A model generated the notes under the pieces. The model searched no databases and was not told the DNA's origin. It saw nothing but the letters and a program-made list of their open reading frames with translations. From Hydrogenophaga borbori (GTDB lineage: Bacteria > Pseudomonadota > Gammaproteobacteria > Burkholderiales > Burkholderiaceae_C), in NCBI RefSeq assembly GCF_003417535.1, contig NZ_QVLS01000011.1, forward strand, positions 62,001-126,000: a DNA stretch of 64,000 nucleotides. The letters run 5' to 3'. This document shows positions 28,023 to 47,645 of this stretch, piece by piece. The first letter of the stretch is position 1. Each line of letters opens with the position of its first letter. Made by a program: the position numbers and the translations under genes.

Positions 28023-28113
28023 GGAAATTGACTCCTCGGGAAACGGGGATTGGGGTTGCGGACGCAACCACCTATAGGGAGGGGCAGTATGCCACCCCCC
28101 ATTCCTAGGGTTT

Positions 28114-35234: not shown

Positions 35235-36155
35235 TCAGGTGGCGCCGGCGGCCGAGCGGCCCAGGTGCTGCACCAGCGCGCGCAGCAGTGGCGCCGCGGC
35301 GGGCGTGAGCGGCGCGCCGCGGCGTGCGATCGAGAAGAACTCCATGGCCACCATGGGTTGGCCCATGCGGTGCACGTCCACCGCATAGCGCCGGCAGGTG
35401 CTGGCCACGAAGGCCGGAAGCACCGCCACGCCCTGGCCGGCCTCGGCCATCGCGATCAGCGTGTGCAGGTGGGCGAACACCGGCCGATCCTCGCGCGGCA
35501 GCGCGGGCGCGAGGCGGGCGTCCACGAGCTGCTGGATCGCGTTGTCCGCGGGCAGCGCCAGCAGCGGCAGCGGCAGCGCCCGCAAAGCGGCCCAGCTCAA
35601 GGTGCCGCGGCCATTGAGGGCGGCGGTCAGCGCGCCGCGCGCGCCCACGGCCACCAGCGGCAAACGCAGCAGCAGCTCGCGCGTGGTGGTGGGTGACTCG
35701 CGCAGCAGCACACCCACGCCCACATCCACTTCGCCGCGCTCCACCATCGGCTGGATCTGTCGGCGGTCCACGTCCTTCACCACCACGCGGATGTCGGGGT
35801 GCGTGCGCGCGAGCTCGTGGCAGGCCTGCGGCAGAACGTCGGCCGCGACCAGAGGGGTGGCCGCCAGGTGCACGGTGCGCGCGGCGTCGGCCGACAGCTG
35901 GCTCAGTTGGTCGGCGACCTCGCGGAAGTCGCGCAGCGTGCGCTCGGCCAGCGGCAGCAGGCGCTCGCCTCCCTGGGTGAGCGACACCGAACGCGTGGTG
36001 CGCTCGAACAGCCGGCAGTCGAGCTGGGCCTCCATGTCGCGCAGCATCAGGCTCAGTCCGGCCTGGGTGATGTGGATCTGTTCCGCCGCGCGCGTGAGGT
36101 TGCGCCAGCGCGCGATGGCGGCGAAAGCCTCAAGTTGGCGCAGACTCAGATTCAT
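35235..36155 (-). CDS. LysR-family transcriptional regulator
   Basis: 306 residues. HTH: MNLSLRQLEAFAAIARWRNL and ITQAGLSLMLRDMEAQLDC, followed by an effector domain (TPLVAADVLPQACHELA, VKDVDRRQIQPMVERGEVDV). It is divergent from the aromatic hydroxylase gene at 36244, which it probably controls. A strong dyad sits 3 bases from its start codon. Confidence 0.9.
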   Translation of the reverse strand: MNLSLRQLEAFAAIARWRNLTRAAEQIHITQAGLSLMLRDMEAQLDCRLFERTTRSVSLTQGGERLLPLAERTLRDFREVADQLSQLSADAARTVHLAATPLVAADVLPQACHELARTHPDIRVVVKDVDRRQIQPMVERGEVDVGVGVLLRESPTTTRELLLRLPLVAVGARGALTAALNGRGTLSWAALRALPLPLLALPADNAIQQLVDARLAPALPREDRPVFAHLHTLIAMAEAGQGVAVLPAFVASTCRRYAVDVHRMGQPMVAMEFFSIARRGAPLTPAAAPLLRALVQHLGRSAAGAT

Positions 36156-37514: not shown

Positions 37515-37546
37515 ATGTTGCTACGTCAACGTTGAGGTAGCAACAT
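37515..37546. promoter_or_regulatory. Shared 32-bp operator, copy 1 (two tandem dyads)
   Basis: Two back-to-back 14-bp dyads, GTTGCTACGTCAAC and GTTGAGGTAGCAAC, flanked by AT on both sides. The whole 32 bases read the same on both strands apart from one mirror position. It lies 85 bases before the TRAP binding-protein gene. A copy with the same spacing is at 42661-42692. MarR proteins bind TTGC/GCAA dyads of this size, and a MarR gene lies in the same module. Confidence 0.7.
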
Positions 37547-37630
37547 CATTTCCACAACAACCAGATCCGGCAGGGAAGGCGCGGCATTCGCCGCAACCAC
37601 CAAAGCCTGTTCAAACCCCAGGAGACAGAC

Positions 37631-38671
37631 ATGATCCGCAGACGCAGCCTTCTCAAGACCGGTGCCGCCGCCGCGGTGGCCGGGCCCATCTTCCAAAGCT
37701 TCTCCCAGCAGGCGGTGAGCCTGCGCATGCACACGTTCATGGCGCCCACGTCCAACGTCTGGACGATCATGCTCAAGCCCTGGATGGACAAGGTGGAGAA
37801 GGAGTCGGGCGGACGCATCCGGTTCGAGGGCTATCCCGCCATGCAACTGGGTGGCACGCCGCCCCAGCTCTACGACCAGGCGCGCGACGGGGTGGCCGAC
37901 ATCGTGTGGACGCTGCCGGGCTACACGCCGGGCCGCTTCGTGCGCGGCGAGGTCTTCGAGCTGCCGTTCATGATGAACGAGGCCGGCGCCACCTCGCGTG
38001 CCTACTGGGAGTTCATCCAGACCCAGGCGCCCGACGAGTTCAAGGACACGAAGGTGCTTGCCCTGCATGTGCATGGCCGCGGGTCCTTTCATTCCACGCA
38101 GCAGATCAAGACGGTCGCCGACCTCAAGGGCATGAAGCTGCGCGCGCCCACGCGCCTCATCACGCGCCTGCTGGCCATGTACGGTGCGGTGCCCGTGGGC
38201 ATGCCGCTGCCGGGCATTCCGGACGCGCTGTCCAAGGGGACCATCCAAGGCGTGGCGACGGCCTGGGACGTGGTGCCGTCGGTGAAGGTGCACGAACTCA
38301 CCAAGTACTCGACCGAATTCGCCGATGACGTGCCGGCCTTCTATACGGGCACCTTCGTCATGGCCATGAACCGCGGCAAGTACGAGTCGCTGCCGCCAGA
38401 CCTGAAGAAGGTGATCGATGCCAATTCGGGCATCGACACCTCGGCCCAGTTCGGGACCATCACGCAATCGAGTGACGCGATCGGTCGCAAGGCGGTGATG
38501 GACCGGGGCAATCCGATCTACACGATCCCGAAGGCCGAGGCGGCCGAGTTCATCCGCCTCGCCGGGCCGCTGAAGGATGAGTGGGTGGCCGACATGAACA
38601 AGCGCGGTTACGACGGGCAGAAGCTGCTGGCCTCGGCCAAGTCGCTGATCGCCAAGTACGCCAAGACCTGA
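37631..38671 (+). CDS. TRAP transporter solute-binding protein (DctP type)
   Basis: 346 residues. Tat-like signal (MIRRRSLLKTGAAAAVAG). The mature protein has the DctP fold, including GYPAMQLGGTPPQLYDQARDG, LHVHGRGSFHSTQQIKTVAD and KGMKLRAPTRLITRLLAMYG with the ligand-carboxylate Arg. No permease genes adjoin. The nearest dctQM pair is at 45.8-47.6 kb, with its own binding protein. It probably captures the acid processed by the Rieske system immediately downstream. Confidence 0.88.
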   Translation: MIRRRSLLKTGAAAAVAGPIFQSFSQQAVSLRMHTFMAPTSNVWTIMLKPWMDKVEKESGGRIRFEGYPAMQLGGTPPQLYDQARDGVADIVWTLPGYTPGRFVRGEVFELPFMMNEAGATSRAYWEFIQTQAPDEFKDTKVLALHVHGRGSFHSTQQIKTVADLKGMKLRAPTRLITRLLAMYGAVPVGMPLPGIPDALSKGTIQGVATAWDVVPSVKVHELTKYSTEFADDVPAFYTGTFVMAMNRGKYESLPPDLKKVIDANSGIDTSAQFGTITQSSDAIGRKAVMDRGNPIYTIPKAEAAEFIRLAGPLKDEWVADMNKRGYDGQKLLASAKSLIAKYAKT

Positions 38672-38712
38672 AGCCGCCCGCGGGGCGGAGGAATGAGAGA
38701 AAGGACCTTCCC

Positions 38713-39798
38713 ATGTTCATCCTGAACACCTGGTACATCGCGGCCTGGGGCCACGAGATCGCCGACAAGCCGCTGGCGCGGCGCATCTGCGACCAGCCCG
38801 TCGTGCTGTTCCGTGACCTGAAGACAAAGCAGATCGCGGCGCTGGAGGACAAGTGCTGCCACCGCGCGGCGCCGCTGTCCATGGGTGTGGTGGTCGAGAG
38901 CGGCCTGCAGTGCGGCTACCACGGCGTGGTGCACGACTGCGCCGGCCGCTGCGTGCACATCCCTGGGCAGGACAAGATCCCCGCGCGCGCCAAGGTGCGC
39001 GCCTATCCCGTGGTGGAGAAAAACGAGTTCATCTGGATCTGGATGGGTGACCCCGAACTCGCGGACGAGTCGGCGATCGTCGATTACCCCTTCAACGACG
39101 ACCACCGGAACTGGCCCCACCACCGCGGCTTCTATCACATCAAGGCCGGCTACATGCTCATGGTGGACAACCTGATGGACCTGACCCATCTGGGCTACGT
39201 GCATGGTTCCACCATCGGCGGGAATCCGCAGACGCACGTGGAAGCCTTGATGGATGTGACCAAGACCGAGGACAGCCTGAAGTACGTGCGCTGGATGCTC
39301 AACTCGGTGCCGCCGCCGACCTACCTGGCCGCCGTGCCCTTCAAGGGTCGGGTGGACCGCTGGCAGGAGTTTGAGTTCTCGCCGCCGAGCAACGTGCTGC
39401 AGTGGAGCGGCGCGGTGGACGCCGGCACCGGCGCGCGGGAGAACGGCAACCGTTCGGGCGGCTTCTCGCTGCGCATCTTCCACGGCCTCACGCCCGAGAC
39501 CGAAAACACCTGCTTCTACTTCTACGCGCCGGCCAATGGCTACCGACCCGAGGATGAGGCGGCGACGGCCGCCCTGATGGACCACATCTCGGAGGCCTTC
39601 ATGGAAGACAAGCTGATCTGTGAAGGCCAGCAGGCGAGGCTCGACGAGCTGGGCGACGGTGGTCTGGTGGACATCGTCTCCGACGCCACGCGCGTGCAGC
39701 TGCGCCGCATCATCCGGCGCATGGCCGAGGCGGAGGCGCGTCAGAACGCCGCGCGCGCGCAAGAGGCGGCGCCGCGCGCGGCCGTGCCGCAGGCCTGA
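38713..39798 (+). CDS. Rieske oxygenase component, vanillate O-demethylase VanA-like
   Basis: 361 residues from the ATG after AAGGA. N-terminal Rieske domain: CCHRAAPLSMG and CGYHG (Cys-x-His and Cys-x2-His ligands). The mononuclear iron site is DNLMDLTHLGYVH (Asn/Asp bridge plus two His). Length and MFILNTWYIAAWGHEIADKP match the VanA/dicamba-demethylase branch, which demethylates or hydroxylates aromatic acids. Several active-site surroundings differ from vanillate enzymes I recall, so the substrate is left open. It pairs with the reductase that starts 16 bases later. Confidence 0.87.
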   Translation: MFILNTWYIAAWGHEIADKPLARRICDQPVVLFRDLKTKQIAALEDKCCHRAAPLSMGVVVESGLQCGYHGVVHDCAGRCVHIPGQDKIPARAKVRAYPVVEKNEFIWIWMGDPELADESAIVDYPFNDDHRNWPHHRGFYHIKAGYMLMVDNLMDLTHLGYVHGSTIGGNPQTHVEALMDVTKTEDSLKYVRWMLNSVPPPTYLAAVPFKGRVDRWQEFEFSPPSNVLQWSGAVDAGTGARENGNRSGGFSLRIFHGLTPETENTCFYFYAPANGYRPEDEAATAALMDHISEAFMEDKLICEGQQARLDELGDGGLVDIVSDATRVQLRRIIRRMAEAEARQNAARAQEAAPRAAVPQA

Positions 39799-39814
39799 GC
39801 GGGCGGTCGCGGAC

Positions 39815-40771
39815 ATGCAGGCTTTGCGTTTGCGCGTGGCGCGCAAGTCCCGGGAGGCGGCCGGCGTGGCCGCCTTCGAATTGCGCTCGCTCGATGGTTC
39901 GGCGCTGCCGCCATTCACGGCGGGCGCGCACGTGGATGTGCTGCTGCGCGAGGGTCTGGTTCGCCAGTACTCGCTGTGCAATGCGCCCTGGGAACGCGAC
40001 CGCTATGTGCTGGGCGTGCAGCGCAAGGTCGACTCGCGCGGCGGCTCCGTCGCCATGCACGACGAGGTGCATGAGGGCGCCATCGTGGACATCGGCCTGC
40101 CGCGCAACCTGTTTTCCATGGCACCGGCGAAGCGATCGCTGCTGTTTGGCGCGGGCATTGGCATCACCCCGTTGCTGTCCATGGCCGAAGTGCTGCACGC
40201 GAGCGGGCGGGCCTTTGAACTGCACTACAGCGCGCGCTCGCCCGAGCAGGCGGCGTTTCGCGCGCGGCTGGCCGCCGCAGCCTACGCCGATCGCGTGCGC
40301 TTTCACTTCAGCACGGGCCCAGGCGCCAACCGGCTGGAACTGCCACCGCTGCTGGCCACGCCCGATCCCGAGGCGCGGCTCTATGTCTGCGGCCCCCCCG
40401 GCTACATCGGCGACATCACCGACTTTGCCGCCGCGCACGGCTGGCGCGCGGACCAGGTGTGCGTCGAGCGGTTTGGCGCCACCACCGCCAGCAGCGGGGC
40501 CGATCGGGCCTTCGATGTCGTGCTGGCGCGCAGCGGGCGGCGTTTCACCATCGCGCCGGGTCAGGCCATTCACGAGGTGTTGCTCAGCGAAGGCGTGGAG
40601 GTGCCGCTGTCCTGCGAGCAAGGGGTCTGCGGCACCTGCCTGACGCGGGTGCTGTCCGGCGTGCCGGACCATCGCGACAGCTTCCTGGACGCCAGTGAGC
40701 ACGCGCGAAACGACTGCATGACCGTGTGCTGTTCGCGCGCGACATCGCCCGAGCTGCTGCTCGACCTTTGA
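39815..40771 (+). CDS. Oxygenase reductase, VanB-like flavin/(2Fe-2S) protein
   Basis: 318 residues. Flavin-binding domain with RQYSLCN, NAD-binding domain with LLFGAGIGITPLLSMAEVL and YVCGPPGYI, and a C-terminal plant-type ferredoxin cluster CEQGVCGTC. It passes electrons from NADH to the Rieske oxygenase encoded just upstream. The order FMN-NAD-2Fe2S is that of phthalate dioxygenase reductase and VanB. Confidence 0.92.
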   Translation: MQALRLRVARKSREAAGVAAFELRSLDGSALPPFTAGAHVDVLLREGLVRQYSLCNAPWERDRYVLGVQRKVDSRGGSVAMHDEVHEGAIVDIGLPRNLFSMAPAKRSLLFGAGIGITPLLSMAEVLHASGRAFELHYSARSPEQAAFRARLAAAAYADRVRFHFSTGPGANRLELPPLLATPDPEARLYVCGPPGYIGDITDFAAAHGWRADQVCVERFGATTASSGADRAFDVVLARSGRRFTIAPGQAIHEVLLSEGVEVPLSCEQGVCGTCLTRVLSGVPDHRDSFLDASEHARNDCMTVCCSRATSPELLLDL

Positions 40772-40780
40772 TCCACGCCC

Positions 40781-41506
40781 ATGACCGAAGCCGACATCGA
40801 CATTCCCACCGCCGACGGCGCGATGAACACCCGCGTGGTGACGCCCGCCGGCGCCGGTCCGCACCCGGTGGTGCTGTTCTACATGGACGCCTTCGGCGTG
40901 CGCGAGGAGCTGCACGAGATGGCGCGACGCCTCGCCGCCGAGGGCTACCTGGTGCTGCTGCCCAACCTCTATTACCGAGAGACGCGCCGCTTCGTCATGA
41001 AGCCGGGCGAAGAGGGCATGAACGAGTTGCGCGCCATGATGGGGCGGCTGGACATCGGGGCCGTCAACCGCGACACCCAGGCCCTGTTGAATGCCCTGGA
41101 GACCCTGCCCGCTGCCGATGCGCGCCGCGTGGGCGCGGTGGGCTACTGCATGAGCGGACCCTTCGTGTTCGCAGCGGCCACCGAGCACCCGGACCGGATC
41201 ACCGCCATCGCGTCCATTCACGGGGCGAACATGGTGACCGAGCGCGCCGACTCGCCGCACCGCATGGCCGAGCGCTTGCGCTGCGAGACCTATGTGGCCT
41301 GTGCCGAAGTGGACAAGTGGGCGTCGGCCGCCGACATGGCTGTGCTGGAAGGTCGGCTGCGGGCCAGTGGCGCGCCGTTCCGGCTGGAGTGGTACCCGGG
41401 CGCGCAGCATGGTTTCGTGTTCCCTTCGCGCAGCGGCGCCTACGAGCGTGCGAGCGCCGAACGCCATTGGCAGCGCCTGTTCGATCTCTTCGGGCGCCGG
41501 CTCTGA
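40781..41506 (+). CDS. Dienelactone hydrolase family protein
   Basis: 241 residues of alpha/beta-hydrolase fold. Nucleophile Cys123 in GYCMSGPFVFAA, and a C-terminal His in QHGFVFPS; a Cys rather than Ser nucleophile is characteristic of dienelactone hydrolases. It would hydrolyse a lactone or ester formed after ring attack. It is separated by 9 bases from the reductase gene and ends the rightward operon. The GST gene converges on it. Confidence 0.88.
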   Translation: MTEADIDIPTADGAMNTRVVTPAGAGPHPVVLFYMDAFGVREELHEMARRLAAEGYLVLLPNLYYRETRRFVMKPGEEGMNELRAMMGRLDIGAVNRDTQALLNALETLPAADARRVGAVGYCMSGPFVFAAATEHPDRITAIASIHGANMVTERADSPHRMAERLRCETYVACAEVDKWASAADMAVLEGRLRASGAPFRLEWYPGAQHGFVFPSRSGAYERASAERHWQRLFDLFGRRL

Positions 41507-41535
41507 GAGGCTGGGGCGCACCGCGCCCCAATCCT

Positions 41536-42147
41536 TCAGCCCACGCGCCGCACCGCGGGCCGGGCCGCCACGGCCTGCAGCCAACGATCGATCGCCGGCG
41601 TGTCGCCGAGTTGGCCGTCCGAGAGCTGCTTCACGCGCTGCAGCCAGCCCGCCGTCGAGCAGAAGGTGGGAATGTCCGCAATCGAGTACTCACCGCAGAT
41701 GTACTCGTTCGCCTGCAGGCGCCGCTCCAGCACCTTGAACAGGCGCACCGCCTCGGTGGTGAAGCGCTCCACCGTGCCGGGCACCGGCACGGGCAGGTCC
41801 GCGTAGTGGTGCAGTTGCGGCAGCGTGCCGCCCACCGAGCCCGTGCCCCAGACCAGCCAGGCCAGCACGTCGAAGCGCTTCGCGCCCGCGGCGGGCAGGA
41901 GCCGGCCGCTCTTTTCCGCCAGGTAGGTGAGGATGGCCGCCGTCTCGAACACGGGCACCTCGCCTTGCGGCGTGTGGTCCACGATGGCGGGGATCTTGTT
42001 GTTCGGCGAGATCGCGAGAAAGGCCGGGTCGAACTGTTCGCCCTTGGTGATGTCGATCTTGCGCGTGTCGTAGGCCTCGCCGGACTCCTCCAGCATGATC
42101 TGCGCCTTGCGGCTGTTCGGGCCGGGGTAGGTGTAGAAGGTGATCAC
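41536..42147 (-). CDS. Glutathione S-transferase
   Basis: 203 residues. Thioredoxin-like N-terminal domain (MITFYTYPGPNSRKAQIMLE; SPNNKIPAIVDH; the glutathione-binding PVFETAAILTYLAEKSG) and an all-helical C-terminal domain (ICGEYSIADIPTFCSTAGW). It resembles bacterial catabolic GSTs, which conjugate or isomerise epoxides and other electrophiles. It is cotranscribed leftward with the glyoxalase gene 9 bases upstream. With an epoxide hydrolase in the same module, a role against an epoxide or activated intermediate is plausible. Confidence 0.9.
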   Translation of the reverse strand: MITFYTYPGPNSRKAQIMLEESGEAYDTRKIDITKGEQFDPAFLAISPNNKIPAIVDHTPQGEVPVFETAAILTYLAEKSGRLLPAAGAKRFDVLAWLVWGTGSVGGTLPQLHHYADLPVPVPGTVERFTTEAVRLFKVLERRLQANEYICGEYSIADIPTFCSTAGWLQRVKQLSDGQLGDTPAIDRWLQAVAARPAVRRVG

Positions 42148-42156
42148 GCCCGCTCC

Positions 42157-42594
42157 TCAGCCCGCCACGGTCTTGGAATCGATCAGCTCGATCTTGTAGC
42201 CGTCGGGGTCTTGCAGGAACGCCAGGTGCAGCGTGTCGTTCTTCATCGGGCCGGCCTCGCGAATGATGTGGGCGCCCTTGGCCTTGAGGTCCGCGCAGGT
42301 GGCGTAGATGTCGTCCACCGCGATGGCGATGTGGCCATAGCCGCTGCCCAGCTCGTAGGGCTTGTCCTGGTCCCAGTTGTGGGTCAGCTCGATCACCGCG
42401 TGGTCGATCTCGGCGCCATAGCCCACGAAGGCCAGGGAGAAGCGGCCTTCGGGATAGTCCTTGCGGCGCAGCAGCTTCATGCCCATCAGGCGCGTGTAGA
42501 AGTCCAGCGACCGCTCCATGTCCTTCACGCGGATCATGGTGTGCATCACGCGGTGCCGGGGCTGGTGGCCCGGCGTCGTTTCCGTCTGGCTCAT
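42157..42594 (-). CDS. Glyoxalase I/lactoylglutathione lyase-family protein
   Basis: 145 residues. VMHTMIRVKDMERSLDFYTR, MKLLRRKDYPEGRFSLAFVG, ELTHNW and GYGHIAIAVDD match GloA-type glyoxalases, with His at the N-terminal motif and Glu at IELTHN as metal ligands. It may detoxify a 2-oxoaldehyde-glutathione adduct or isomerise a glutathionyl intermediate made by the neighbouring GST. Its promoter region shares the 32-bp operator with the divergent epoxide hydrolase. Confidence 0.9.
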   Translation of the reverse strand: MSQTETTPGHQPRHRVMHTMIRVKDMERSLDFYTRLMGMKLLRRKDYPEGRFSLAFVGYGAEIDHAVIELTHNWDQDKPYELGSGYGHIAIAVDDIYATCADLKAKGAHIIREAGPMKNDTLHLAFLQDPDGYKIELIDSKTVAG

Positions 42595-42660
42595 GTCTGT
42601 CTCCGTTCAATGGGGGAAGGCCGGATCGCGCGCCTTTCCGTGGGTGGTGGTCATCTCTTG

Positions 42661-42692
42661 ATGTTGCAATTGCAACGTTGAGGTGGCAACAT
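42661..42692. promoter_or_regulatory. Shared 32-bp operator, copy 2 (two tandem dyads)
   Basis: GTTGCAATTGCAAC and GTTGAGGTGGCAAC back to back, flanked by AT on both sides. The left dyad is a perfect palindrome. It sits between the divergent glyoxalase (start 42594) and epoxide hydrolase (start 42742) genes. The right half CAACGTTGAGGT is identical to copy 1 at 37515-37546. Confidence 0.7.
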
Positions 42693-42741
42693 TATGCGAA
42701 GAATTCCGATAACCGCCAACTACCTTTTCGAGGAGACACGC

Positions 42742-43875
42742 ATGGCCATGGCCATCCCGTTCAAGCACGTCACCGACGACGCCATGCTGGATCGCATCGC
42801 GCGGCAGGTGGCCGAATACCGCTGGCCCCGCACGCCCGCGGGCGCCAGCTGGCCGCAGGGCGCCGATCCGGCGACCATGCGGTACATCGTTCAACGCTGG
42901 CGCGACGGCTTCGACTGGCGCGCGCAAGAGGCCAGACTCAACGAGCGGCCTCAGTTCCAGGCGAGCGTGGCCGATCTGCGCCTGCACTTCGTGCACCAGC
43001 GGGCCGCGGCGAAGGCGGAACGCCTGCCGGTGTTGCTGATGCACGGTTGGCCGGGTTGCTACCTGGAGTACCTCGATGTCGCGGACCGGCTGGTGGCCGC
43101 CGGCCACGACGCGGTGGTCGTGTCCCTGCCCGGCGCGGGACATTCGGACGCGCCCGAGCAAGCCATGGGGCCGCGCGCCATGGCGGGCCTGATGCACCGC
43201 CTGATGACCGAGGTGCTGGGCTGCCCGCGCTACCTGGCGCACGGCGCCGACTGGGGCTCCCTCATCGCGGGCTGGCTGGGCTTCGAGCACCCGCAGGCGT
43301 GCGCGGGCGCGCACATGACCATGGTGAGCCCGCGCTTCGTCGCCGGCGCGGCGACCGCGCCACAGGAGCAGCAATGGCTGGCGGCCTTTCGCGAGCGCTT
43401 CGAGGACGATGGCGCCTACTTCCGCCTGCAGACCTCGCGCCCCCTCACCGCGGGCTATCTGCTCAACGACAACCCGGTCGGTCTGCTGGCCTGGATGCTG
43501 GAGAAGTTCGCCGCCTGGGGCGACCCGCTCGAGGCCGGCCAGCCGGCGGCGTTCCAAACGCCCGAGCGCGCCGACCGCTTGCTGCGCAACGTGATGCTCT
43601 ACCTGGTCACCGGCAGCGCGGCCACGTCCACCTGGATTTACCGAGGCCTGACCACCGAAGGCCCGCCCGGCTACCCCGGCGGTCAGCGCGTGGAGGTGCC
43701 GGTGGCGATCGCCGCCACGCGCGACCCCATGTTCCAGCTGCCGCCGCGCAGCCTGGTGGAAAAGGCCTACCGCGTCACCCGATGGACCGAGCTGGCGGGG
43801 GGAGGGCACTTTCCGGGCTATGAAGTCCCCGACGCGCTCGGCGAAGACATCCGCGCATTCGCCGCCGGCCTGTGA
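42742..43875 (+). CDS. Epoxide hydrolase, microsomal (EHN-domain) type
   Basis: 377 residues from the ATG preceded by GAGGAG. N-terminal EHN-like segment with ARQVAEYRWPRTPAG and QRWRDGFDWRAQEARLNERP, then an alpha/beta-hydrolase with HGWPG oxyanion motif near 105 and the Asp nucleophile in HGADWGS. A C-terminal His in GGHFPGYE completes the triad. It opens an epoxide to a diol. It is divergent from the glyoxalase-GST operon and shares the operator. Confidence 0.88.
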   Translation: MAMAIPFKHVTDDAMLDRIARQVAEYRWPRTPAGASWPQGADPATMRYIVQRWRDGFDWRAQEARLNERPQFQASVADLRLHFVHQRAAAKAERLPVLLMHGWPGCYLEYLDVADRLVAAGHDAVVVSLPGAGHSDAPEQAMGPRAMAGLMHRLMTEVLGCPRYLAHGADWGSLIAGWLGFEHPQACAGAHMTMVSPRFVAGAATAPQEQQWLAAFRERFEDDGAYFRLQTSRPLTAGYLLNDNPVGLLAWMLEKFAAWGDPLEAGQPAAFQTPERADRLLRNVMLYLVTGSAATSTWIYRGLTTEGPPGYPGGQRVEVPVAIAATRDPMFQLPPRSLVEKAYRVTRWTELAGGGHFPGYEVPDALGEDIRAFAAGL

Positions 43876-43943
43876 GCGCCCTGGGCGCCGCCGGGCCAGC
43901 TTGTACAGTACGTCTCTGTTGAATCCACGCTAGGGACTACTGA

Positions 43944-44501
43944 ATGGCAACGTCGGTGAAAAAGGCCGCCACGGACCAGAGCAAGAAGAAGCGCGAGGTG
44001 CTCAATCTTGCCCACTACGTCACCTATTTCTTCACGGTCCTTGCGAATAAGCTGTCGAGCGGCGCCTCGCGGCTGTACCTCAAGCGCTTCGGCATCGGAA
44101 TCATCGAGTGGCGGGTGATGGCCATGGTCGCGATCGAGCCCGACATCGCGCCGGCCCGCATCACGCAGATCATTGGTCTGGACAAGGCCTCGGTGAGCCG
44201 GGAATCGCGCCGGCTGGAAGAGAAGGGTTACCTGGCCGTGGCCGAAGACCCGAGCAACCAGCGCCGCAAGCTGCTGAGCCTCACGCCCCTGGGCTACGAA
44301 CTGCACGACCGCATCATCCAGGTGGCGCTGGAGCGCGAGCGCCGCCTGCTGTCGGACCTGAGCCCCGACGAGGTGGAAACCCTGGTGGATCTGCTGCAGC
44401 GCACCACCGCCAAGATCCCTCACGTCAACGAGTTCGACCCGGGCTCAACGGCGGCGGCCACCACCAAGCCGCGGCACCGCAAAAACACCATGATGCGCTG
44501 A
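43944..44501 (+). CDS. MarR-family transcriptional regulator
   Basis: 185 residues. Lys-rich N-terminus, then the winged HTH: IIEWRVMAMVAIEPDIAPAR, ITQIIGLDKASVSRESRRLE and the wing EDPSNQRRKLLSLTPLG. A Lys/Arg-rich tail ends the protein. It is the only non-LysR regulator in the module and follows the epoxide hydrolase. It is the best candidate to bind the two 32-bp operators, because MarR dimers bind TTGC-type dyads. That link is inference. Confidence 0.88.
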   Translation: MATSVKKAATDQSKKKREVLNLAHYVTYFFTVLANKLSSGASRLYLKRFGIGIIEWRVMAMVAIEPDIAPARITQIIGLDKASVSRESRRLEEKGYLAVAEDPSNQRRKLLSLTPLGYELHDRIIQVALERERRLLSDLSPDEVETLVDLLQRTTAKIPHVNEFDPGSTAAATTKPRHRKNTMMR

Positions 44502-44709: not shown

Positions 44710-45753
44710 ATGTCCAGCACATTCGCTCGAAGGGCGGCATTCGCCGCCCTCGCCACCGCCGGGGCGCTGGTCGGCGGCCTGTTCGCCACCGCGGCCTCGG
44801 CCCAGGAAATCACCATCAAGTACGCCAACGTCATGGCGCCGGCGCACGACACCAGCAAGGGGGTGGACAAATTCGCCGAACTGGTGGCGAAGAAGTCCAA
44901 CGGCCGGATCAAGGTGCAGCACTTCCCGGGCGGCCAGCTGGGCAGCGACAAGGAAACCTACGAGGCCGCGCAGCAGGGCCTGCTGCAGATCGCCGGCGGC
45001 TCGTACGCCAACCTCGTCACCATCACCCGCGCCTTCGAGGTGCTGCACCTGCCCTACATCTTCGACAGCCGCACCGAGGCGCACCGCGCGCTCGACTCGG
45101 CCAAGGTGCGCGAGGCCATCAACAAGGAGCTCGATCAGGTCGGCCTGCGCTGGCTGATGACCTTCGAATTCGGTTTCCGCGACATCAATACCACCAGCAA
45201 GAAGGTGCTGGAGCCCGGCGACCTGGGCGGCCTGAAGATCCGCGTCTCGCGCTCGCCGACGGAGGTGGGTGGCGTGAAGGCCTTCGGCGGCACGCCGGTC
45301 ACCGTCGACTGGCCCGAGGTCTACAACGCGCTGCGCTTCAAGGTGGTCGATGGCGAAGCCCAGCCCTTCGGCACCATGGTCAGCGCCAAGCACCACGAGA
45401 TCATCAAAGAGCACCTCGAGCTTGACTGGCAGTACTACGGCTTCGTGGGAATGATCAGCACCAAGCAGTGGAACGCCTATCCACAGTGGGCGCGCAAGGT
45501 CATCGAAGAGGCCGCGACCGAGGCGGAGCAATACCACCGCCGCATCTGGGCCGAGGAAGACGAGAAGGCGAAGGCGGCCTACCTCAAGGCGGGCGGCCAG
45601 ATCACCGTGCCCACGCCGTCCCAGCGGGCCCTGTGGGTGAAGGCGGGCCAAGGCATGTGGGGGTCGTCCGGCATCGACAAGGCACTGATCGACCTGGTCC
45701 GCGCGGAGGCCACCGCCACCGCGCCCGCCGCCGGCGCCACCGCCGCCAAGTGA
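44710..45753 (+). CDS. TRAP transporter solute-binding protein (DctP type)
   Basis: 347 residues. Signal peptide ends ASAQE. The mature protein begins ITIKYANVMAPAHDTSKG, with the family segments HFPGGQLGSDKETYEAAQQG, HLPYIFDS and GGLKIRVSRSPTEVGG (ligand-binding Arg). It is followed by the small and large permease genes, making a full TRAP transporter for a carboxylate, probably the acid used by the ALDH/Rieske genes downstream. An Ala/Thr-rich tail ends the protein. Confidence 0.92.
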   Translation: MSSTFARRAAFAALATAGALVGGLFATAASAQEITIKYANVMAPAHDTSKGVDKFAELVAKKSNGRIKVQHFPGGQLGSDKETYEAAQQGLLQIAGGSYANLVTITRAFEVLHLPYIFDSRTEAHRALDSAKVREAINKELDQVGLRWLMTFEFGFRDINTTSKKVLEPGDLGGLKIRVSRSPTEVGGVKAFGGTPVTVDWPEVYNALRFKVVDGEAQPFGTMVSAKHHEIIKEHLELDWQYYGFVGMISTKQWNAYPQWARKVIEEAATEAEQYHRRIWAEEDEKAKAAYLKAGGQITVPTPSQRALWVKAGQGMWGSSGIDKALIDLVRAEATATAPAAGATAAK

Positions 45754-45806
45754 AGCCCCGGCCCCGCCCGGCGTTCGGGCGGGGCGCCACCCTAGGGATG
45801 CACCCC

Positions 45807-46292
45807 ATGGAAAAGCTGCTCGATCGCGCCACCGCCGCGCTGGTGGCCCTGCTCGTCGCGACGATGGTCGCCGTCATCCTCGCCTCGGTGTTCACGCGCT
45901 ACGTGCTCAACGACCCGCTGAGTTGGGCCGAGCAGGTGGCGAAGTACCTGATGATCTGGGCCGCCTTTCTCGGCGCCAGCATCGGCATCAAGGAGGGCGC
46001 GCACATCGCGGTGACCGTGCTGGTCGATGTGCTGCCGCCTTCGCTGCAGCGCCTCTGCTCCTACCTGGGGTACGCGCTCACCGCGGCTTTCCTGTCGGTG
46101 GCGCTGTACCAGGGCGTGCTGTTCACGAACAAGGTGCGGCCGCACTCCGATCCACTGGTGTGGGAGATGAGCATGGCCTGGGCCTACGCCGCCATCCCGG
46201 CCGGCTGCCTGCTCATGCTGTTGCAGCTGGCCTTCGTGTTCTTCAAAGGCGATGGCGGCCAGAAGATGTCTTCCTCCGCCAGCATGACATGA
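45807..46292 (+). CDS. TRAP transporter small permease subunit (DctQ type)
   Basis: 161 residues from the ATG at 45807, chosen because AGGG lies 9 bases upstream; an ATG at 45798 is in frame. Four hydrophobic segments with VFTRYVLNDPLSWAEQVAKY, WAAFLGASIGIKEGAHIAV and a C-terminal AIPAGCLLMLLQLAF fit the DctQ pattern. It bridges the binding protein and the large permease. Confidence 0.88.
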   Translation: MEKLLDRATAALVALLVATMVAVILASVFTRYVLNDPLSWAEQVAKYLMIWAAFLGASIGIKEGAHIAVTVLVDVLPPSLQRLCSYLGYALTAAFLSVALYQGVLFTNKVRPHSDPLVWEMSMAWAYAAIPAGCLLMLLQLAFVFFKGDGGQKMSSSASMT

Positions 46293-46358
46293 GTCCGGCG
46301 CCTCCCCGCGGTCCGATGCCCTGCTTTCCCTTCATTCCTGTCTGACACGAGGTTGCTC

Positions 46359-47645
46359 ATGGGTGCCACCCTGATGCTGACGTTCCTGGGCGTGCTCGCC
46401 ATCGGCGTGCCCGTCGCCTTCGCCCTGGGCATCGCCGCCATGGTCATCTTCGCGGTGATCAATCCTTCGCTGCTGGCCCTGGTGCCGCAGCGCATCTTCA
46501 CGGGCATGGACCTGTTCGCGCTGGTGGCCGTGCCCTTCTTCATCCTGGCCGGCGAGCTCATGGGCGGCTCGGGCATCCTGGACCGCATCATGGCCTTCTC
46601 GCGCATGGTGGCCGGCGGCATCCGCGGCAGCGTGGCGCAGGTCACCATCCTGGTGAGCATGATCTTCGGCTGGATCAATGGCTCGGGCGTGGCAGGCGCC
46701 AGCGCCGTGGGCTCGATGATGATCCCCACGGCGACCAGGCAGTACGGCAACGCGGGCTTCGCCTGCGCGGTCACCGCCTGCGCCTCGACGGTGGGGCCCA
46801 TCATTCCGCCGTCCGTGCCGATGATCATCTACGCCTTGGTGGCGCAGAACGTCTCGGTGGGCGCGCTGTTCGCCGCCGGCGTGGTACCGGGCCTGCTGAT
46901 CGGCCTGGGGATGATGGCCATCGTGTACCTCATCGCGCGCCGCCGCAACTACCCGGCCGACGGTGGCCACTACACCCTGGGCCAGCGCTTCGTGATCTCG
47001 CGCCAGTTTCTGGTGGCCCTGTTGCTGCCGCTGATCATGGTGGGCGGCATCGTCTCCGGGGCCTTCACCCCGGTGGAGTCGGGCGCCATCGCCGTGCTCT
47101 ACGCGATGCTGGTGGGCTTCTTCGTCACGCGCACCCTGGACCTGAAGGGGCTCTATGCCGCGCTGCGCAAAACCGGGGTGATCTCCTCGGTGGTGTTCCT
47201 GATGATGGGCGTGGCCAACGTCGCCGCCTGGATCATGACCACCGAGCAGGTGCCGCAGGCCGCGGCCGAGGCCATCCGCGCGTTCACCGACAACCCGCTG
47301 GTCTTCCTGCTGCTGGTCAACCTCATCCTGCTGGTCGTCGGCTGCCTGTTCGACACCGTGGCCGCGATGGTGATGTTCGGCCCCATCCTGATCCCCATGG
47401 CCGAGGCCTTCGGCATCGACCCGCTGCACTTCGGGGTGATCGTCTGCATCAACCTGATCATCGGCATGGTCACGCCACCCGTGGGCATCTGCCTGTTCGT
47501 GGTGTCGGGCATCGCCAAGACGCCGATCGAGCGCGTGGTCAGGGAGAGCCTGCCCTTTCTCTTCTGGCTGCTGGCGGTGCTGGCCATCGTCACCTACCTG
47601 CCGCAGAGCTACCTGTGGCTGCCCCGGCTGATGGGCTACGCCTGA
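46359..47645 (+). CDS. TRAP transporter large permease subunit (DctM type)
   Basis: 428 residues from the ATG with GAGG 6 bases upstream. About a dozen hydrophobic segments. Typical DctM motifs are AVPFFILAGELMGGSGI, FGWINGSGVAGASAVGSMMI, ACASTVGPIIPPSVPMIIYA and TPPVGICLFVVSG near the C-terminus. It carries the Na+-coupled transport path. It may also serve the two orphan TRAP binding proteins in this window, though that is speculative. Confidence 0.93.
   Translation: MGATLMLTFLGVLAIGVPVAFALGIAAMVIFAVINPSLLALVPQRIFTGMDLFALVAVPFFILAGELMGGSGILDRIMAFSRMVAGGIRGSVAQVTILVSMIFGWINGSGVAGASAVGSMMIPTATRQYGNAGFACAVTACASTVGPIIPPSVPMIIYALVAQNVSVGALFAAGVVPGLLIGLGMMAIVYLIARRRNYPADGGHYTLGQRFVISRQFLVALLLPLIMVGGIVSGAFTPVESGAIAVLYAMLVGFFVTRTLDLKGLYAALRKTGVISSVVFLMMGVANVAAWIMTTEQVPQAAAEAIRAFTDNPLVFLLLVNLILLVVGCLFDTVAAMVMFGPILIPMAEAFGIDPLHFGVIVCINLIIGMVTPPVGICLFVVSGIAKTPIERVVRESLPFLFWLLAVLAIVTYLPQSYLWLPRLMGYA

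Follow-up and report, generated by a model that had tools for sequence, protein, structure and literature searches.

The MarR-family repressor MexR of Pseudomonas aeruginosa controls an efflux pump from two operators, PI and PII, each of which is an inverted GTTGA with 5 bp between the arms; the sites overlap promoters, and one dimer per site has been suggested (PMC9892617). CouR of Rhodococcus jostii, a MarR repressor of aromatic catabolism, recognizes ATTGA-N5-TCAAT over a -35 box, serves divergent promoters from one operator and is freed by a pathway intermediate (PMC4737184). Both accounts follow the available parts of the two papers. Here we present an analysis of two 32-bp sites, A and B, in a stretch of 64,000 nucleotides of Hydrogenophaga borbori (contig NZ_QVLS01000011.1, positions 62,001 to 126,000; the window in what follows), which stand at the promoters of a module of transport and oxidation genes followed by a MarR-family gene. 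Judged from comparison of sequences, both sites are very probably operators of the module's own MarR protein (43944-44501), which would act by ligand-released repression with two dimers at each site.

With MexR the system in the window shares a MarR-family regulator (MexR being a repressor), two sites, inverted GTTG(A)-type repeats and overlap with promoters, as far as the accessible account of MexR goes. It differs in the spacer, which is N6 here and gives GTTG-N7-CAAC in MexR, and the MexR chain 1lnw is only distantly similar in sequence to the window's MarR protein (E 1e-4); the closest solved MarR structures by sequence are 3nrv (E 8e-25) and 2fa5 (E 2e-22). CouR, as described in the same part of PMC4737184, differs by its 5-bp spacer and by a single inverted repeat per promoter. 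The Pigmentiphaga kullae protein BhbR2 likewise belongs to the MarR family and to a catabolic operon and has a TTG...CAA palindrome that overlies a -35 box, but its 17-bp site is TTGATT-N5-AATCAA and it is an activator (PMC12016517, in the portion available). The window's protein carries a MarR-type winged helix-turn-helix (PF12802, 35.1 bits, cut-off 27; PF01047, 29.5 bits, cut-off 24.6) and reaches the cut-off of none of nine named NCBIfam MarR equivalogs (Saro_0803, BilQ, HpaR and others; best score 46 bits, where 200 are needed). No description of this operator was found in the available texts of the open-licence literature searched, which is no proof of its absence from print. As far as these searches go, regulator and operator would form a new pair under ordinary MexR- or CouR-like control with another spacer.

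Site A reads ATGTTGCTACGTCAACGTTGAGGTAGCAACAT and site B reads ATGTTGCAATTGCAACGTTGAGGTGGCAACAT; the two are identical at 27 of 32 positions. Each consists of GTTGM-N4-KCAAC twice in a 14-bp register between outer AT, that is, of two dyads of the form GTTG-N6-CAAC. A first-pass annotation had given both copies at exactly these coordinates and in this layout, with at least 25 of 32 positions in agreement, and all of this holds. Site B aside, no 32-mer in the window agrees with site A at more than 18 of 32 positions, which is the level of shuffled sequence (10 single-letter shuffles for site A, one strand; best matches 18-19 of 32). Single dyads are not unusual, the window containing 6 with at most one mismatch versus 6.75 expected; a fifth exact dyad lies alone at 28055-28068. 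Throughout the window's genome (4,583,034 bases, 37 contigs) GTTG-N6-CAAC occurs 27 times and a reversed control word 16 times. The tandem, at up to 3 mismatches, was found in this genome at sites A and B only, far from the hundreds of places named beforehand as counter-evidence, and the reversed control gave 1. An exact GTTG-N6-CAAC tandem in the same register was found in none of the 298 other family genomes searched. Chance origin of the tandem was rejected, as there is no other copy elsewhere in the window's genome.

Relatives were collected with the MarR protein, which led to three named loci, L003 (91% identity), L004 (77%) and L005 (73%); L003 lies on the same contig as L042. A genus search with the same protein at 1e-15 gave 30 matches in 20 of 67 genomes, all fetched with flanks, and added among others L028 (MarR 77-79%), L029 (66%) and L030 (61%). 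The first-pass annotation had proposed conservation among relatives as a check, and the tandem stands at the same promoters in all four relatives that carry the module with a MarR protein 73-92% alike (L003, L028, L004 and L005). Tandem dyads occupy both the A and the B place in L003, L028 and L005. In L004 three consecutive dyads, of which the last has one mismatch, precede a single operon, the glyoxalase, glutathione S-transferase (GST), epoxide hydrolase and MarR genes of this locus all being oriented with the main operon; a second operator was not found at its 20.5-kb locus. This single operator, where gene order puts everything in one direction, suggests that the site tracks promoters and not the mere presence of the genes. 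With the window included, the tandem is present in five of five aligned A regions; conservation is imperfect in L003 and L028, where the second A dyad ends in GAAC, not CAAC. Recurrence at the same promoters, together with the single operator of L004, lends comparative support to the earlier reading of A and B as operators of a two-promoter regulon. As an association, the module shows what is expected of the MarR family, an operator with inverted repeats located at the promoters of linked genes or close to them.

In L029 the same module occurs without a match to the dienelactone hydrolase, and its dyads are whole but not abutting: a pair at a distance of 40 bp precedes the DctP gene, three at distances of 41 and 34 bp occupy the gap between the glyoxalase and epoxide hydrolase genes that corresponds to the B place, and single dyads stand ahead of the MarR gene and of a flavin adenine dinucleotide (FAD) monooxygenase gene. 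Since these dyads are complete without abutting, the 14-bp dyad, not the 32-bp palindrome, is the recurring unit as judged from the relatives. Site A as a whole is a 32-bp inverted repeat without spacer, with 15 of 16 arm positions paired, which could be taken to mean that the palindrome works as one unit, bound by one protein on the CAAC-GTTG axis or folded as an RNA hairpin. We consider this very unlikely, because whole dyads lie 21-61 bp apart in L029, L038, L041, L058 and L044-L047; the hairpin variant, as terminator or attenuator, was rejected because there is no terminator-like structure at A or B.

The tie between dyad and regulator was examined by counting GTTG-Nk-CAAC for k = 0-16 in 34 loci, namely the window (64 kb) and 33 regions of roughly 12-20.6 kb surrounding MarR homologues. 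The 34 comprise all 30 genus-search matches, two from a search of the order and two of the named loci; L003 is not counted beside L042, and every match is taken, chance ones too. In the 21 loci with tblastn scores above 90 bits, window included, k = 6 occurs 50 times, while the other 16 spacers occur 1-14 times each (mean 6.1); the nominal Poisson probability of this excess, 2e-28, is too small since the loci are related. The MexR-type form GTTG-N7-CAAC occurs 4 times in the same 21 loci, so the sites are not of the MexR operator form. At least one N6 dyad is present in 19 of these 21 loci. The remaining 13 loci have 5 N6 dyads, four of them at L046 and L047, two loci that fall within the dyad-bearing group on the tree. 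That tree, a maximum-likelihood tree of 34 MarR proteins, contains one group of 23 with support 90/94, short of the tool's star; dyads accompany 21 of the 23 members and one of the 11 proteins outside (a single dyad), and long branches leave the outer tree unsure.

Protein searches of 399 family genomes at E 1e-40 returned only the window's own MarR, and of 399 order genomes at 1e-20 three MarR matches, with at most 8 candidates per genome scored in each case. The wider clade, only about 40% identical to the window's protein, was reached through the genus search and a DNA-first search. For the latter, the exact tandem in a 16-bp register (tandem-16) was sought in the 399 family genomes and found at 8 places in 8 genomes, versus 2 genomes for the reversed control. 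One of the 8, in genome G091, was already known through its MarR gene. The seven new places were fetched blind to genes, and all seven have, within 10 kb, a MarR protein 64-77% identical to a member of the clade; these proteins are not in the 34-protein tree. L102 and L103, two of the seven new places, each combine just one exact tandem-16 operator with two related MarR genes in a stretch of 20 kb. At up to one mismatch the genus has 10 tandem-16 places, of which 7 are loci from the MarR search, and 7 tandem-14 places, of which 6 are. What the comparison of sequences shows directly is the existence of the sites, their return at the same promoters and the link of the dyad to a MarR clade. The first-pass annotation had proposed the MarR protein at 43944 from its proximity, and the N6 enrichment around the clade and the seven DNA-first places now help to give it good support.

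The collected set contains 62 exact dyads, whose outer letters are uninformative because they were chosen by exact match. It omits L032 (a near-copy of L035), L042 (the contig of L003) and the dyads of L104-L107; mismatched dyads, namely the second A dyad of L003 and L028, the third of L004 and the distal ones of L032-L035; and dyads judged by position to be chance (window 28055, L031 3305, L034 15211, L041 2389, L044 2295, L057 8918, L100 18585 and L102 13997). L032-L035, first labelled as single-dyad loci, have a degenerate second dyad at a distance of 16 bp. At L058 (G414:C1:900780-901253) the MarR match has one in-alignment TGA, which may mean a shortened or broken gene copy; the dyads at this locus, at a distance of 21 bp, are intact. 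Near the dyads of 15 wider-clade loci, 20 proteins were considered as targets, and 19 have a family match: 5 Peripla_BP_6, 1 TctC, 2 Rieske oxygenases, 1 ATP-binding cassette permease, 5 flavin monooxygenases, 2 alpha/beta hydrolases and 3 short-chain dehydrogenases. Judged by these families, the clade seems to act in taking up and oxidizing organic compounds; gene calls around the dyads are crude, and several sites marked as lying in a gene fall in over-long open reading frames.

Coordinates of the operators, the genes of the module and the promoter-like elements are summarized in Table 1.

Table 1. Features of the module in the window (positions counted from the first letter of the window)
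Feature	Position	Strand	Basis or remark
Operator A	37515..37546	.	two abutting 14-bp dyads, 37517-37530 and 37531-37544, ahead of the DctP/Rieske/reductase/hydrolase operon
Operator B	42661..42692	.	two abutting 14-bp dyads, 42663-42676 and 42677-42690, between the divergent glyoxalase-GST and epoxide hydrolase genes
Conserved element TGTCAAGAGGGGAA	37496..37509	+	GTCAA starts 20 bp before the first dyad of operator A
Tripartite ATP-independent periplasmic (TRAP) transporter substrate-binding protein, DctP (PF03480)	37631..38671	+	domain match
Rieske oxygenase, VanA C-terminal domain	38713..39798	+	domain match
Reductase, 2Fe-2S domain (PF00111)	39815..40771	+	domain match
Dienelactone-hydrolase family protein	40781..41506	+	domain match
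Glutathione S-transferase family protein	41536..42147	-	domain match
Glyoxalase I-like protein	42157..42594	-	TIGR00068, 166 bits, cut-off 120
Possible epoxide hydrolase promoter TTGCAA-N17-TATGCG	42670..42698	+	-35-like hexamer inside operator B; weak consensus, inferred
Promoter-like pair TTGGCG-N17-CATAAT for glyoxalase-GST	42691..42719	-	-10-like hexamer touches operator B
Epoxide hydrolase family protein (EHN + alpha/beta hydrolase)	42742..43875	+	domain match
MarR-family regulator, proposed binder of both operators	43944..44501	+	domain match and comparative evidence

The promoter-like pair on the glyoxalase side keeps the same offset in all four B sites examined (window, L003, L028 and L005), with the -35-like hexamers TTGGCG, TTGGCG, TTGTTG and TTGAAA and the -10-like hexamers CATAAT, CATAAT, CATAAT and CAGAAT, respectively. 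On the other side the form in which the distal dyad supplies TTGCAA is completed, across 17 bp, by TATGCG in the window and TATGCT in L028. A comparable arrangement, TTGCAA 17 bp before CATAAT, AATAAT, CACAAT or CAAAAT, occurs at 6 of the 11 tandem-16 operators examined (L031, L036, L037, L101, L102 and L103). Upstream of operator A, TGTCAA-N-AGGG is invariant in five of five aligned A regions, and L029 has a looser GTCAAGGGAG at the same distance ahead of its A dyad; the element TGTCAAGAGGGGAA may serve as part of a promoter or as the site of an activator.

In the proposed regulation each 14-bp dyad would be the site of one dimer, so that two dimers would sit side by side at each promoter, which fits the separable dyads. 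Ligand-free dimers would cover the promoter and block RNA polymerase. The substrate of the module or an intermediate would free the operators, and the release would turn on the DctP/Rieske/reductase/hydrolase operon, the glyoxalase-GST pair and the epoxide hydrolase gene. The MarR gene, which starts 68 bp after the epoxide hydrolase gene, has no dyad ahead of it in the window even at 2 mismatches; it would therefore either be included in the regulon through transcription running on from the epoxide hydrolase promoter or lie outside it, and co-induction by such read-through is probable. Physical binding, the two dimers, repression, the ligand and the read-through are what we infer from the arrangement. 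Because the bound protein would cover promoter-like elements next to and inside operator B, repression is the most likely mode of action of the module operators, though not a certain one.

Several observations weigh against this interpretation. L030, whose MarR protein is 61% identical and which lacks the module, has no dyads in its 18.8 kb; around L043, in the same genome (G418), roughly 10 kb are free of dyads, and across the whole of G418 dyads are not in excess (28 versus 28 for the control). In the genus, three of the ten tandem-16 places and one of the seven tandem-14 places, each with one mismatch, have no MarR match nearby; these four look like chance matches, and for L106, a 7.5-kb contig with the site at 266, the absence of MarR is weak evidence. 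The epoxide hydrolase promoter form is absent in L003 and L005 and thus present at only two of four B sites, and no recognizable sigma-70 promoter was found at site A. As to the mode of action, BhbR2 covers a -35 box as an activator and stays bound with its ligand, according to the available part of PMC12016517. Apart from this, the L030 MarR protein is close to that of L029 in the recognition helix.

An alternative is that the MarR protein binds the sites as an activator or dual regulator and is not a simple repressor. Site A without a recognizable promoter could mean that bound protein is required there, and BhbR2 provides a precedent. We nevertheless regard activation as improbable, as the operator touches the -10-like hexamer at all four B sites examined, which is a blocking position, and as most characterized MarR proteins repress, by the accessible account in PMC4737184. 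That the sites belong to another regulator, such as the LysR protein encoded at 35235-36155, has hardly any probability left. A LysR homologue and the FAD monooxygenase do accompany the module in L003, L028, L005 and L029, but dyads are also found where distant MarR homologues lie among other genes, a related MarR gene is found at all seven new DNA-first places, and L004 keeps the operator and MarR with no match to LysR in its 20.5 kb (tblastn E 1e-15). LysR was rejected as owner on account of L004.

The gap between the LysR and FAD monooxygenase genes has no dyad at 0 or 1 mismatch and two at 2 mismatches. The TRAP binding protein of the dyad-controlled operon has no adjoining membrane subunits; a TRAP set with an aldehyde dehydrogenase and a second Rieske gene lies at 44710-47645, without dyads ahead at 0 or 1 mismatch; the 20.6 kb of L003 contain no match to this set. 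A word TGTACAGTAC upstream of the MarR gene (43900-43919) is common to the window, L003 and L028; its counterpart in L004 is TGTAAAGTAC, and similar words occur in L029 and L030. It is perhaps the -10 element of a separate MarR promoter.

Among the relatives the distance between dyads ranges from 14 to 61 bp, and the spacing classes follow the sub-groups of the tree with 7 changes, the minimum being 6; none of 200 shuffles was as low, a result to which near-copies contribute. Genome G427 holds the 14-bp and the 39-bp kind, G414 the 16-bp and the 21-bp kind. We tentatively suggest, as a possibility on the doubtful side, that one MarR clade reuses a fixed 14-bp word with sub-clade-specific spacing (14, 16, 21, 34-41 and 61 bp), which would help to keep paralogues apart: the distance would be read through contacts between neighboring dimers, and paralogues in one cell would stay off each other's operators. 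The inner bases of the dyad also differ, and by themselves they sort 41 out of 53 dyads from the three larger classes correctly (L029 and L038 left out), which counts against a pure code of spacing. The natural series of spacings is material for testing the cooperation of neighboring MarR dimers. A MarR clade of the Comamonadaceae that lies beside transport and oxygenase genes gains a DNA word by which target operons may be read off genomes, and the module is predicted to be one regulon with one inducer, which would narrow the search for its substrate.

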